From NCBI RefSeq assembly GCF_000092845.1, contig NC_014150.1, forward strand, positions 186,001 to 250,000: 64,000 nt of DNA. Reading direction: 5' to 3'. Positions 56,356-62,292 of this stretch are shown one piece after another. Position 1 is the stretch's first letter. Every line of letters starts with the position of its first letter. Source of the DNA: Brachyspira murdochii DSM 12563 (GTDB lineage Bacteria; Spirochaetota; Brachyspiria; Brachyspirales; Brachyspiraceae). The position numbers were made by a program, and so were the translations under genes. Below the pieces are notes generated by a model. The model had not been told where the DNA came from. It worked only from the letters and a program-made list of their open reading frames with translations, and searched no databases.

Positions 56356-56949
56356 TTACTTATCATCTTTTTCATCTTTGGCTATCATTGTTCTAACAGC
56401 TTTAGCCACTTTTTCTGGGTCTTCTCTAACCTCTCTTTCCATCTCTTCACTTGTAACCTTTTTATCAGGGAACATGCTGCTGCTTGAAGTATAGCTTGCA
56501 GTACTAGGCTTACTGAATACTATATCTCCAATATCATCTCCTGAACTTTGATAAGTTGGCTTATTAGCAGTTTTATCAGTATTTAAAGGTTTTGGAGATG
56601 ATGTATCCAAGTTCAAATCTGGAGTAAAAGGAATATTATCATTATCAGCAGATGTATTATTAGTACTATTATCATCTATAGCATTATAGTCTATATCCAT
56701 ATTAGAATTAGTATCTGCTTCATCTATCACATCACCTAAATATTTTTTCAATATTGTACCCAATAAAAACAATATGACAATAGTTATAATAGCTGAAAAA
56801 ATTGCTTTTAATAAAGAAATATCAATTCTATTTTTATAAGAAACTGATAATATAAGCGTTATAACAAAAGAAAGTCCAGCTATAATTGATGCTAATTTTC
56901 CAAAATTAGATGAAAAATATTGTTTTACTTTTTCAACTATATTATTCAT
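56356..56949 (-). CDS. Two-TM flagellar-operon protein with FliF-like C-terminal tail
   Basis: 197 residues. Two membrane helices (about 18-36 and 46-66) are followed by a ~90-residue Asp/Asn/Thr/Ser-rich linker and a C-terminal helix (SEEMEREVREDPEKVAKAVRTMIAKDE). The P-E-K-V-A-x-x-[VI]-R-T pattern resembles the FliG-binding tail of the MS-ring protein FliF. The rest shows no FliF domain. It sits between flhG and fliA, with GAGGT before the ATG. A role linking something to FliG is inference; otherwise it is an unknown spirochaetal protein. Confidence 0.8.
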   Translation of the reverse strand: MNNIVEKVKQYFSSNFGKLASIIAGLSFVITLILSVSYKNRIDISLLKAIFSAIITIVILFLLGTILKKYLGDVIDEADTNSNMDIDYNAIDDNSTNNTSADNDNIPFTPDLNLDTSSPKPLNTDKTANKPTYQSSGDDIGDIVFSKPSTASYTSSSSMFPDKKVTSEEMEREVREDPEKVAKAVRTMIAKDEKDDK

Positions 56950-56983: not shown

Positions 56984-57847
56984 TTATTTTTTACTAACAA
57001 AGGATAAAAGAGATTCCATAAATCCGCCCAAACCTTTTACTTCTCTGTCATCATCATATTCCATATCAACTATTTTTTTAGCAATATTATATATAGACAT
57101 AGAGGCATGACATTTATTATCATATTGATAAAAAGGAAGCTGCTGAGACACTGCATAAGGAATAGTTTTATCTTCCAAAATATGACCTAAATATTTTACA
57201 TCCATATCCAAATATTTTTTGCTCGTCATAATAATTTTATCTCCAACTTCTTTACCTTCAGAAGCCTTTGTAACTCTATTAACCAATATTTTTATATCAG
57301 CATTAGAATTTTCAGGGGCTATAGATTTTATTACACCATAAGCATCAAGTATAGCAGTAAGTTCTGGAGTTGTAACAACAATACTTTCATCTGATGATAA
57401 TAAAAAATATAAAACTGTATCAGATATTCCAGCACCTGTATCTACTATAATGATATCAGCATCATTTAAAGAATCCATACTATTAACCAATTTAGTTAAA
57501 GCTCTTCCAGAAAGATTTGCAAGAGAAGAGAATCCTGAAGCTCCTGCAATATACCTTATGCCGTAATCAGTTTCAAGCACAACCTCATGAAGTTTTTTTA
57601 CCCCTTTTATAACATGGTAAAGATTATACTCCGGCATATTACCAAGTATAACATTAACATTTCCAAGTCCAAGATCAGCGTCTATTAAAAGCACATTCTG
57701 ACCCAATTCCTGCAATGCTATGGATAGATTAATAGCTATATTAGTTTTGCCTACGCCGCCTTTGCCGCTGGCTATGCTTATTATACGCTGAGGGCGTTTA
57801 TCTTTTACGCCCATCATCTTTCTTAATTCATCTGCTTGATCTTTCAT
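56984..57847 (-). CDS. flhG: FlhG/FleN, MinD-like ATPase controlling flagellar number
   Basis: 287 residues. Deviant Walker A SGKGGVGKT (about residues 27-35), switch segment LLIDADLGLGNVNVILG, IIIVDTGAGIS and TTPELTAILDAYG are typical of FlhG. It acts with the SRP-type GTPase FlhF at the cell poles; FlhG stimulates FlhF GTPase through its N-terminus (here KDQADELRKMM, which fits the usual FlhG N-terminal motif containing D-Q-A). It follows flhF by 35 bases. In spirochaetes the pair would set the number and place of periplasmic flagella. Confidence 0.94.
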   Translation of the reverse strand: MKDQADELRKMMGVKDKRPQRIISIASGKGGVGKTNIAINLSIALQELGQNVLLIDADLGLGNVNVILGNMPEYNLYHVIKGVKKLHEVVLETDYGIRYIAGASGFSSLANLSGRALTKLVNSMDSLNDADIIIVDTGAGISDTVLYFLLSSDESIVVTTPELTAILDAYGVIKSIAPENSNADIKILVNRVTKASEGKEVGDKIIMTSKKYLDMDVKYLGHILEDKTIPYAVSQQLPFYQYDNKCHASMSIYNIAKKIVDMEYDDDREVKGLGGFMESLLSFVSKK

Positions 57848-57882: not shown

Positions 57883-59856
57883 TTATTTTGAAGAACCAAA
57901 TAATCCTTCCATTATTTTATAACCATATTTCTTAGCTGTAGATATATCTTTAGGAACTCCCTGACCATGTGTTATATAGGTAATAGGCAGTTTCTTTCTT
58001 GTAATAGCACAAATTGAAGAAGCCAAATAATCAGTTTCATCAACTTTTGTAAGTATTACTCCCTTATAATTAGTAGGCTTAAAACCATTAAGTATTTTTA
58101 CAGCATCTTTATATTTAGCAGTGGCACTCATAACAAGCTGAATATCCATGTCAAATCTTCCAACTGTAGTGAAATATTTTGACATAGCAACTATTTCTTC
58201 AGCACTTTTTGGAGAACGTCCCATAGTATCAATAAATAAAAGCGATGAATTATCCATCTTTCTAATTTCTGCCCTTAAAGCCTCTGGGGTACTTGCACTA
58301 GTAAATGGAACTTTCATAATACTAGCATATCTTTGCAGCTGGTCAACTGCTGCTATTCTATAATTATCTATTGTAACAAAAGAAACTTTTTTTCCAGATT
58401 TCATATGCTGAGCTGCTATTTTAGGTATAGTTGTTGTTTTTCCAACTCCTGTAGGTCCTACAAATACTATAATTTTCTTTTTGGCTCCTACATCTATACC
58501 ATTAGCTAATATTAATTTGTCAGAAAAATATTTTTCAACCTCCTCTCTAATTACATCTTTAGACTGAAAAAATCTTGCATTACTTGAAGTTAATAAATAT
58601 TCTCTTAATTCTAAAAGCACTTCCTCTGGAAACTCTCTGTCTCTTAAATAATTAAAACTCTCCTCCATTCCGTCAGCAGGACTATTATCAGAGCTTTCAT
58701 CATTATTATTATAATCATCAGAAATTTCATCAGTATCTTCAAAATAATCTCTAATGTTAGTTTTCTTTTCTTTATGTTCTCTAGTGAGATTATTTTCTTC
58801 TCTGTATTCTTTTATTTCTTCTATGGCATTATTAATTTCTTCATCTTCAGTATCTGTAAATGCATTTTTATTATTAGAAGAATTACTATTATTTTGAGAA
58901 CTATATTTATTTTTATTAATATTTGGTAAACTTCCTTCCAAATATTCTTTTACCATATCTCTTATCTGCTCTTGAACTAATTTTTTTACATTTTCATCTA
59001 TAGCATTAGCAGCATTAACCGAATTATTATTATGATTATTTGAAGTGTTAATATGATTAGGTATAACATTGCTATTAAAATTATTCATATTGCTGTTCAT
59101 ACCATTCATAAAACTATTATTAGCAAAATTACTATAATTATTTATTGGAGAAAAACTATTATTTGTATTATAGTCAGAAAGTATTGAACCTTTTACATTA
59201 GTAAATGTAGAAGATGAAAAATTAGAATATGGAGAATTATTAAAATGAGGCAATGGAGTAAAATTATCTGTGCTATTATTATTTATCTCTCTAGCAGATA
59301 TATTTTCATTTTTTTCTTCGATATATGAATGATTATTGCTTTCCAAAGTTTCATTAACAAGTTCTTCGTTGATACTACTAATACCATCTCTGCTGTCATC
59401 ATCAAAACTGTCAGAATGAACAGATTGAGAAGAAGAGTTTAAACTATTTTTTATAGCTGAAGAACTGCTTGTTCTATTGGCATTTCTTTCTCTTGAAGCC
59501 TCTTTTAAAGCCTTAGTTACTGCAACTATTCTATCAGCCATTTCGCTTGCATCAATAGTTTCAGTTGTATGCTTTTTCATCTCTATTCTGTCGCTTAGAA
59601 GTTTGCTTCTATGCATATCATCATCTTCTGTACTGCTGTCATAAGAATTTTTTTCTTCTGAATTATTTTTTCTATCATATATAGAGTTATTAAGCATTAT
59701 TCTAAGTTCATGCTCTGTTTTCATTCCAAGACCTAAGAAACCGCCTACTTTGACATCTTTGCTTGTCAGTATAACAAAATTTCCGCCGTATTCCACTCTA
59801 GCTTTGGCAAAGGCGTCAGTTTTATCCTTCCCTCTTATAGTACGTATATCTACCAT
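57883..59856 (-). CDS. flhF: FlhF, SRP-type GTPase for flagellar placement, with long Asn/Ser-rich linker
   Basis: 657 residues, longer than the usual 370-500. The N-terminal basic domain (about 1-65) contains FAKARVEYGGNFVILTSKD and GGFLGLGMK. Residues about 120-390 are Asn/Ser/Asp-rich and low in complexity. The C-terminal NG GTPase domain has FVGPTGVGKTTTIPK (about 463-477), TIDNYRIAAVDQLQRYA, LLFIDTMGRSPKS and GVILTKVDETDY. It locates the first flagellar components at the pole. GAGGAG lies 7 bases before the ATG. flhG follows, and a tiny FlhF-N-like gene precedes it. Confidence 0.94.
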   Translation of the reverse strand: MVDIRTIRGKDKTDAFAKARVEYGGNFVILTSKDVKVGGFLGLGMKTEHELRIMLNNSIYDRKNNSEEKNSYDSSTEDDDMHRSKLLSDRIEMKKHTTETIDASEMADRIVAVTKALKEASRERNANRTSSSSAIKNSLNSSSQSVHSDSFDDDSRDGISSINEELVNETLESNNHSYIEEKNENISAREINNNSTDNFTPLPHFNNSPYSNFSSSTFTNVKGSILSDYNTNNSFSPINNYSNFANNSFMNGMNSNMNNFNSNVIPNHINTSNNHNNNSVNAANAIDENVKKLVQEQIRDMVKEYLEGSLPNINKNKYSSQNNSNSSNNKNAFTDTEDEEINNAIEEIKEYREENNLTREHKEKKTNIRDYFEDTDEISDDYNNNDESSDNSPADGMEESFNYLRDREFPEEVLLELREYLLTSSNARFFQSKDVIREEVEKYFSDKLILANGIDVGAKKKIIVFVGPTGVGKTTTIPKIAAQHMKSGKKVSFVTIDNYRIAAVDQLQRYASIMKVPFTSASTPEALRAEIRKMDNSSLLFIDTMGRSPKSAEEIVAMSKYFTTVGRFDMDIQLVMSATAKYKDAVKILNGFKPTNYKGVILTKVDETDYLASSICAITRKKLPITYITHGQGVPKDISTAKKYGYKIMEGLFGSSK

Positions 59857-59933
59857 AGTATAACTCCTCTAATCATCTTAAAAACTCCTCGATTATAAAT
59901 ATTTATATCTTAATAATTTATCTTAATTTTTTA

Positions 59934-60107
59934 TTAATATTGTTCTAATATACCAATAGAAACTTCAAACTCTTTTTTAATCATACCAAATATGTTTTTT
60001 CTTTTACTTTCTCTAACACTGATAATAAAGTAACTTTCGCCATATTTATCTCTGGCTTGTTTTTCAATTTCTTCCCTATTTTTACCAAAAATTTTTATAG
60101 TTTTCAT
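59934..60107 (-). CDS. 57-residue protein resembling the FlhF N-terminal domain alone
   Basis: Found by reading the gap between flhA and flhF. ATG 60107 with GGAG 7 bases upstream, TAA at 59934-59936. The product starts MKTIKIFGKNREEIEKQARD, continues KYGESYFIISVRESKR and NIFGMIKKEFEVSIGI, and ends EQY. The order (strand with K-x-F-x-G, an E/K helix, a Y-G-x-x-[FV]-I-[IL] strand, basic loop, G-[LM]-[FI]-K-K turn, E-x-x-[VI] strand) is that of the FlhF N-terminal domain (compare FAKARVEYGGNFVILTSKD in flhF). It carries no GTPase part. It sits 64 bases after flhA and 77 before flhF in the same operon, so co-expression is expected. Function unknown; partner or regulator of FlhF/FlhG is a guess. 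Confidence 0.8.
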   Translation of the reverse strand: MKTIKIFGKNREEIEKQARDKYGESYFIISVRESKRKNIFGMIKKEFEVSIGILEQY

Positions 60108-60171
60108 TGTTTTACTCCAAATAATTATATTTATATCTTAAAAATACTCTTTTACAGAGCTTTGTATTTTA

Positions 60172-62292
60172 TTATTTTATACTAGCAACTCCCTGTACAT
60201 TATACCCCTGTGCTATTTCGGTAGTTGCTATGACCTTATACTTACCAATATTTTTGGCTATAAATTGATATAAAGGTCTTCTTATGATAGGAGAAGTTAA
60301 AAATACTATATCATCAACTCCAGAATCACTAACAAGTTTAACAGCATCTTTTATATTTTTAATCAAGTTCTGCATACTTTCAAAACTCATAGCTATCATT
60401 TGAGAGCCTTGTAAATTTCCAGTATTTGCAAGGTTTTGAGCTATATTATTTTGCAATTGCTGACTTAAAGTGATAACTCTAATATTTCTGTCTTGGTCTG
60501 CAACCATCTGTGATATTTGAGATGCAAGTCTGCTTCTTACAAGTTCAGTAGCCTGTTCGCTTCCCATAATAGATATAGCATCAGCAACACCCTCTAATAT
60601 AGCAACACTGTTTCTGATAGGCACTTCCTCCTGAAGAAGATTCTGCAACACTTTTTGTATATAACCAAGAGGACTTTCATTATGAGGTTTAGCAGCAAGT
60701 ACTTCGGATACAAGAGCTTTATGGTCATCTTTAATAAGATCGAGCATATTCTGTACCTCTTCACGTCCGATAAGAAGATTAGCATTTCTTTTAATAGTTT
60801 CGCTAAAGTGGGTAGCAATAACTGATGTAGGCTGAAACAGCATAAATCCTTTTTTCTCAGCCATATCTTTTTCATCAACTTTAATCCAATAAGCTGGAAG
60901 CCCAAATGCAGGCTCTCTTACTTTCTCACAATCTGGTGAAGGTCCGTCTGGAGAATTTGCATTCAAAGCTAAAAGCATATTAGGACGTACGAATCCTTTA
61001 GCCATCTCTGTACCATTAATACTTACAGTATATTCGTCTGGCTCTATTACACTATTATCTACAATACGTACTGGAGGTACAACCAATCCCACTTCCAAAG
61101 CAAGCTCTCTACGTATCTGACTTATTCTGTTAATTAAATCTCCGCCCTCAGACTCTAATGCCAAAGGTATGAGCGAAGCACCAACAGAAAGTTCTATCTT
61201 TTCCACTTTTAAGAAAGGAGTAACATCTAAAGGACCTTGATGCACCTGCTCTCCTGCATCTGTTTTTGTACCGTCTTCATTAAGTCCAAGCTCCTGCTGT
61301 TCTTTTTTCAAAGCATAACCTGCTAAAAATAATGCTAATGCTATAACAAACAAAGCTATCTTTGGAAAACCCGGTAAAAGCATTAAAAAGAAAGCAAAAC
61401 CAGCACCTATAAATAAGTTTTTAGGTTTAGCAAAAATCTGCACTGCAATTTGAGTAGACAAATTATCTTCGCTGCTGCTTCTGGTTACTAATAAACCAGT
61501 AGCAAAACTCATAAAGAAAGAAGGTATCTGACTTACCAAACCATCACCTACTGTAAAGCGTGTATAAGCATTAACAGCTTGAGCAAAAGGCTCTCCTCTC
61601 ATAGTCATTCCTATGATGAGTCCGCCTACTATATTTATAACTGTGATTATGATACCTGCTATAACGTCTCCTTGTACAAACTTTGAAGCACCGTCCATAG
61701 TACCGTAAAAATCACTCTCTCCTCTGATCTTTTTTCTCTTCTCTTCTGCCTCTTTATCAGTAATAGCACCAGCCTGAAGTTCGCTTTCAACAGCCATCAT
61801 TTTTGAAGGCATACTATCTAATGCAAATCTTGCTGCTACTTCTGATACCCTTGTAGCACCTTTAGTGATAACTACAAACTGTACTATAATAAGTATGATA
61901 AATATTACCACACCCACAACTATATTTCCGCCTACTACAAAATCAGCAAATGATGTGATAACTTTACCATTAAAATTAGCACCCTCTGTAAGAATAGCTC
62001 TTGTAGTGGATACGTTTAGAGCAAGTCTGAAAGCTGTCATAACAAGAAGTACAGAAGGAAATACACTGAAATCATTGGCACTTTTTATACTAAGCACCAT
62101 AAGTAATATTAATAATGATACTATAATATTTACTATAAGCAAAAAGTCTAATACAAAGGAAGGTAATGGTATAATGAGCATCATTATTACCATAACCGCA
62201 CCTACAGCAAACATTATATCGCTGTGTCTGCTCATATTAGCAGGCAGTTTTATATTATCTAATATTGATTTAGCACCATTCATTGTTGCCAC
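60172..62292 (-). CDS. flhA: Flagellar biosynthesis protein FlhA
   Basis: 706 residues, family length. Export-gate subunit of the flagellar type III system: an N-terminal eight-helix membrane half with FALDSMPSKMMAVESELQAGAI and RGESDFYGTMDGASKFVQGDVIAG (the conserved cytoplasmic loop), and a C-terminal cytoplasmic half (about 340-706) that binds late chaperone-substrate complexes. The start is GTG 62292, since GGAGG lies 8 bases before it; the ATG three codons later would be 17 away. It follows flhB by 12 bases. Confidence 0.96.
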   Translation of the reverse strand: MATMNGAKSILDNIKLPANMSRHSDIMFAVGAVMVIMMLIIPLPSFVLDFLLIVNIIVSLLILLMVLSIKSANDFSVFPSVLLVMTAFRLALNVSTTRAILTEGANFNGKVITSFADFVVGGNIVVGVVIFIILIIVQFVVITKGATRVSEVAARFALDSMPSKMMAVESELQAGAITDKEAEEKRKKIRGESDFYGTMDGASKFVQGDVIAGIIITVINIVGGLIIGMTMRGEPFAQAVNAYTRFTVGDGLVSQIPSFFMSFATGLLVTRSSSEDNLSTQIAVQIFAKPKNLFIGAGFAFFLMLLPGFPKIALFVIALALFLAGYALKKEQQELGLNEDGTKTDAGEQVHQGPLDVTPFLKVEKIELSVGASLIPLALESEGGDLINRISQIRRELALEVGLVVPPVRIVDNSVIEPDEYTVSINGTEMAKGFVRPNMLLALNANSPDGPSPDCEKVREPAFGLPAYWIKVDEKDMAEKKGFMLFQPTSVIATHFSETIKRNANLLIGREEVQNMLDLIKDDHKALVSEVLAAKPHNESPLGYIQKVLQNLLQEEVPIRNSVAILEGVADAISIMGSEQATELVRSRLASQISQMVADQDRNIRVITLSQQLQNNIAQNLANTGNLQGSQMIAMSFESMQNLIKNIKDAVKLVSDSGVDDIVFLTSPIIRRPLYQFIAKNIGKYKVIATTEIAQGYNVQGVASIK

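Follow-up and report, generated by a model that had tools for sequence, protein, structure and literature searches.

The window analysed here, a stretch of 64,000 nucleotides from the genome of Brachyspira murdochii DSM 12563, contains a set of flagellar genes that lie on the same strand in the order flhB-flhA-small gene-flhF-flhG (Table 1). The gene upstream of the small one is taken to be flhA from knowledge of that family; except for FlhF and the MinD-like FlhG, the genes are all named here by our reading of the sequences. The small gene, which begins 64 nt past the flhA stop codon and ends 77 nt short of the flhF ATG, encodes a protein of 57 amino acids, MKTIKIFGKNREEIEKQARDKYGESYFIISVRESKRKNIFGMIKKEFEVSIGILEQY. 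The original prediction of a 57-codon frame with a good ribosome-binding site at this position is borne out: a GGAG stands 7 nt ahead of the ATG, and GGAG or GAGG is retained 5' of the gene in those related species whose upstream stretches were inspected. The flhF gene that follows is complete and encodes its own copy of the N-terminal domain of FlhF, the FliG-interacting domain or FID (PMC11236974). In FlhG, the sequence DQADELR fits the DQAxxLR motif described as the activator of FlhF (PMC11236974).

Table 1. Features of the flhA-flhG region, in window coordinates
Feature	Position	Strand	Basis
Small gene, stand-alone FID-like, 57 aa (free FlhF N-terminal domain)	59934..60107	-	ORF (ATG at 60107, stop at 59934), conservation, profile and fold matches
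Shine-Dalgarno GGAG	60115..60118	-	7 nt ahead of the small-gene ATG
flhA (presumed), 5' neighbour of the small gene, same direction	60172..62292	-	sequence and gene order
flhF, 657 aa	57883..59856	-	own FID (residues about 1-56), long linker, SRP-type GTPase domain
flhG (MinD-like ATPase)	56984..57847	-	DQADELR close to the N-terminus
14-base motif TTAAGATATAAATA	60128..60141	-	in the small-gene leader
14-base motif, second copy	59900..59913	-	in the flhF leader
8-codon frame ATGATTAGAGGAGTTATACTATGGTAG	59850..59876	-	own ATG, overlaps the flhF start
197-aa protein, possible FlgV relative	56356..56949	-	3' of flhG

A 14-base motif, TTAAGATATAAATA, stands in the small-gene leader and again in that of flhF. 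The 3.24-Mb genome has four exact copies of it, these two included; the copy ahead of the small gene is retained in many Brachyspira. Comparable in position to the 8-codon frame that overlaps the flhF start in B. murdochii (ATGATTAGAGGAGTTATACTATGGTAG), short leader frames opening with ATG or GTG are found 5' of flhF in several Brachyspira, and such a frame could possibly serve translational coupling. A search for promoters and terminators between these genes returned none above chance.

The small gene is conserved in relatives, one of two findings on which the initial reading had been made to depend. Protein searches recovered it in 26/26 Brachyspira genomes, among them those of B. hampsonii, B. 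innocens, B. alvinipulli, B. pilosicoli and B. catarrhinii, and in all 31 genomes of the sampled order, which comprises Brachyspira, two sister genera and a second family, with identities from 100% down to 35%; at every locus of the order for which the flanks were read, it lies between flhA and flhF. An identical protein is found in 12 Brachyspira species, encoded by 12 different DNA sequences, and among these 40 of the 57 codons vary, in every case synonymously, with 40 of the 41 variable bases at third positions. One pair differs by 25 synonymous and 0 non-synonymous changes in the small gene. Across 23 species the mean pN is 0.032, compared with 0.068 over the opening 56 codons of FlhF itself and 0.067 over the closing 56 of flhA, with pS of the small gene similar or higher, and the small gene is thus more constrained than the N-terminus of FlhF. 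The frame is broken in a single genome, that of Brachyspira sp. G79, by two one-base losses within runs of A that are probably sequencing errors. Conservation across the order and exclusively silent variation in 12 species place the frame beyond chance and confirm a genuine gene under strong purifying selection.

The small protein is convincingly a homologue of the FID of FlhF when sequence and predicted fold are taken together. Compared by BLASTP with FlhF of the same genome, it has 30% identity over 47 residues at the N-terminus (E 8e-4), and a profile-profile comparison (hhalign) of its family with the FlhF N-termini of the order gives E 4.7e-9. The B. murdochii protein matches positions 1-52 of the NCBI FlhF model TIGR03499 with E 1.5e-4, a score similar to that of the N-terminus of FlhF itself (E 1.9e-5); 9/10 family members match this model, the best with E 8.6e-8, and no other NCBI family is matched. 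At 57 residues the protein lacks the linker and the SRP-type NG GTPase domain and is therefore not a member of the whole-FlhF family, its bit score being 21.8 against a cut-off of 174. A Pfam search returned no family at its cut-off. In the reverse direction, a profile of the small-gene family recovers probable FlhF starts in other families of spirochaetes, down to E 1.7e-9, the FlhF identity of which was checked by the P-loop at 13 loci. These matches uphold the proposal of a stand-alone domain resembling the N-terminus of FlhF.

Structure prediction, suggested at the outset as a check, agrees in pointing to a related fold. AlphaFold2, run on the one sequence without an alignment, predicts strand-helix-strand-strand (E2-8, H11-22, E26-37, E43-53) with a pLDDT of 87.9, two of the five models falling below 65; the predicted model has the three antiparallel strands and one helix of the FID. 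In a Foldseek search of 350,542 PDB chains the top match was 9en1, the FID of Shewanella putrefaciens FlhF (probability 1.00, TM 0.65/0.76, E 0.03), followed by further chains of the same entry, all with E-values above 0.01. Searched directly against PDB sequences, the small-gene profile failed to find 9en1, and a library of viral structures returned generic small alpha/beta proteins only, including those of the Cse60/DUF1737 type. For the FID of B. murdochii FlhF itself, the model was poor (pLDDT 49). Since the small strand-helix-strand-strand fold is common, the fold comparison is weak when taken by itself.

In a tree of 34 FIDs, the free genes, together with a second copy described below, cluster apart from the FIDs of FlhF (SH-aLRT 91, UFBoot 94), while the FlhF FIDs of the order form another clade with one extra frame (97/96); because the alignment has just 61 columns, the inner details of the tree are uncertain. 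On these sequences, the simplest reading is that the free gene would be an ancient copy of the FID of FlhF, derived from one duplication that predates the diversification of the order. The second copy is found in genome G019, where another free FID-like gene of 56 amino acids lies in tandem with the first (L037:754-924). The extra frame, of 84 amino acids, separates the small gene from flhF in G006 and is apparently an altered copy of the start of that genome's own flhF (L039:351-605); in G004 and G005 the same position holds a gap of comparable size. As these two genomes, G019 and G006, show, the copying of FIDs is a recurrent process in the order.

Outside the order, the gene was sought in a sample of 296 genomes from the phylum. 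A single-sequence search at E 0.05 returned weaker matches only, nearly all inside frames of 225 to 610 amino acids, and a profile search gave the same pattern among its stronger matches, with weak matches to short frames further down. The best of these short frames inspected, in G160, faces a long unrelated ORF on the other strand, and none of the short frames was confirmed as a stand-alone FID. Of 20 stretches from other families that were inspected, 19 are at expected flhF starts, and in 13 of these flhF was recognised by its P-loop. At ten of the 13, an upstream frame identified as FlhA by its C-terminus stops no more than about 50 nt from where the flhF frame opens, usually overlapping it; at L050 there is a gap of 189 nt with no matching small frame in it, and at the other two (L052 and L062) the frame upstream cannot be clearly assigned to FlhA. 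No free FID gene was thus confirmed elsewhere in the 296-genome sample, with flhA abutting flhF at most of the loci inspected. The free FID gene therefore looks like an innovation of the order of Brachyspira among the genomes sampled.

As to function, it had been suggested from the sequence that the small protein might act as a competitor, regulator or adaptor of FlhF, which is plausible. The FID was first defined in 2024, and since the N-terminal domain of FlhF is a FliG-interacting domain (PMC11236974), this suggestion has to be recast in terms of FliG. In Shewanella, FlhF needs its residues 1-60 to bind FliG, and these residues suffice for it; contact is mainly with the M and C domains, and FliG bound by FlhF can still engage FliF but cannot take up FliM/FliN (PMC11236974). 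By analogy, we infer that the free FID is a putative ligand of the M and C domains of FliG. A single FliG is encoded in 29/30 genomes of the order with a match to FliG_C; in the exception, G162, one full FliG is accompanied by two partial FliG_C matches located in another frame. In this respect Brachyspira and the sister genera differ from many other spirochaetes, which have two or more FliG proteins. With one FliG_C match in 29/30 genomes, a second FliG is ruled out as a separate target, and the free FID and that of FlhF would share one partner.

The reading that we favour, tentatively, is that the free FID competes with FlhF for FliG and so tunes the number of flagella that are started. It would bind the middle and C-terminal part of the sole FliG at the site used by FlhF and, like the FID of Shewanella FlhF, would prevent premature uptake of FliM/FliN by FliG, so that completion of the C-ring would be delayed. 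Having no GTPase part, it would be neither tethered to the pole nor switched by FlhG, and its amount would therefore set how much FliG is available for starting basal bodies at the two poles, limiting flagellar starts. It is a more speculative proposal, possible but held with some reserve, that a dedicated free-FID regulator, conserved in this order of spirochaetes, sets the number of periplasmic flagella per pole through competition for FliG and so adds a third component to the FlhF-FlhG counting switch.

The free FID and that of FlhF differ at many positions, so that the partner of the free one may have changed. A division of labour after the duplication, in which the free FID took over FliG binding and that of FlhF another partner, or the reverse, would keep both in the same pathway without competition. 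It would fit the grouping of the two kinds of FID into separate clades throughout the order (UFBoot 94 for splitting off the small genes and 96 for the FlhF clade), the distinct invariant residues of each group and the tighter constraint on the free copy; however, both groups match the same stretch of the FlhF model, positions 1-52, and score alike there, and FID profiles from other spirochaetes score the two about equally. We regard this division as somewhat unlikely. Alternatively, pairing with the FID of FlhF, or between its own copies, could make the free FID a subunit or a brake of FlhF rather than a ligand of FliG. The two FIDs share a predicted fold and are encoded by neighbouring genes, the open strand edges of a small three-stranded sheet would fit such pairing, and the FID crystal 9en1 contains 12 chains, but several chains in a crystal are no proof of an oligomer in solution, and we judge pairing to be improbable.

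It is more doubtful still that the protein has an unrelated role, such as nucleic-acid binding, and has only a common small alpha/beta fold in common with the N-terminus of FlhF. There are weaker fold matches to Alba-type DNA-binding proteins, dodecins and ribosomal S6, but these are fold matches only, for which the small protein has no Pfam or NCBIfam counterpart; FlhF is the one NCBI family that its relatives match, and the gene adjoins flhF. It is scarcely credible that the gene is what remains of a partial flhF duplication in decay, or that the frame is non-coding. The flhF start is indeed copied in part elsewhere, as the 84-aa frame shows, and two one-base losses disrupt the frame in one genome, but this explanation is refuted by the silent-only variation in 12 species, and the gene is present in two families of the order. 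The gene bears on how FlhF and FlhG count flagella, which is an open question, especially in spirochaetes with many periplasmic flagella at both poles. A naturally free and near-invariant FID would uncouple FliG binding from the GTPase part and would offer a direct genetic means of telling which of them determines flagellar number.

The closest known counterpart, the FID of S. putrefaciens FlhF (9en1), shares with the small protein the predicted fold, a size of about 45-60 amino acids, a start at residue 1, the match to FlhF-model positions 1-52 and a flagellar neighbourhood. The small protein, known here from its sequence and a model, differs in being a separate product of 57 residues without linker or GTPase domain, encoded beside a complete flhF with an FID of its own. 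The FlhF of B. murdochii carries the linker and the SRP-type GTPase domain, and its FID, a member of the other clade, is less well conserved. Judged by their titles and abstracts, the papers found on Brachyspira and flhF, or on the FliG interaction domain and FlhF, do not treat a free FID as a topic. Another small flagellar protein, FlgV (bb0268), has its gene next to flhF/flhG in spirochaetes as well as in other bacteria (PMC10802407). Both are small, overlooked genes in the flhF-flhG part of a flagellar cluster, but FlgV has two transmembrane segments and is encoded 3' of flhG, whereas the gene described here is 5' of flhF and its product, which belongs to the FID family, is without an evident membrane segment. 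In B. murdochii, the flgV position 3' of flhG is occupied by a gene for a 197-aa protein with a hydrophobic N-terminal part and a tail rich in Ser, Asn and Asp, possibly a relative of FlgV.
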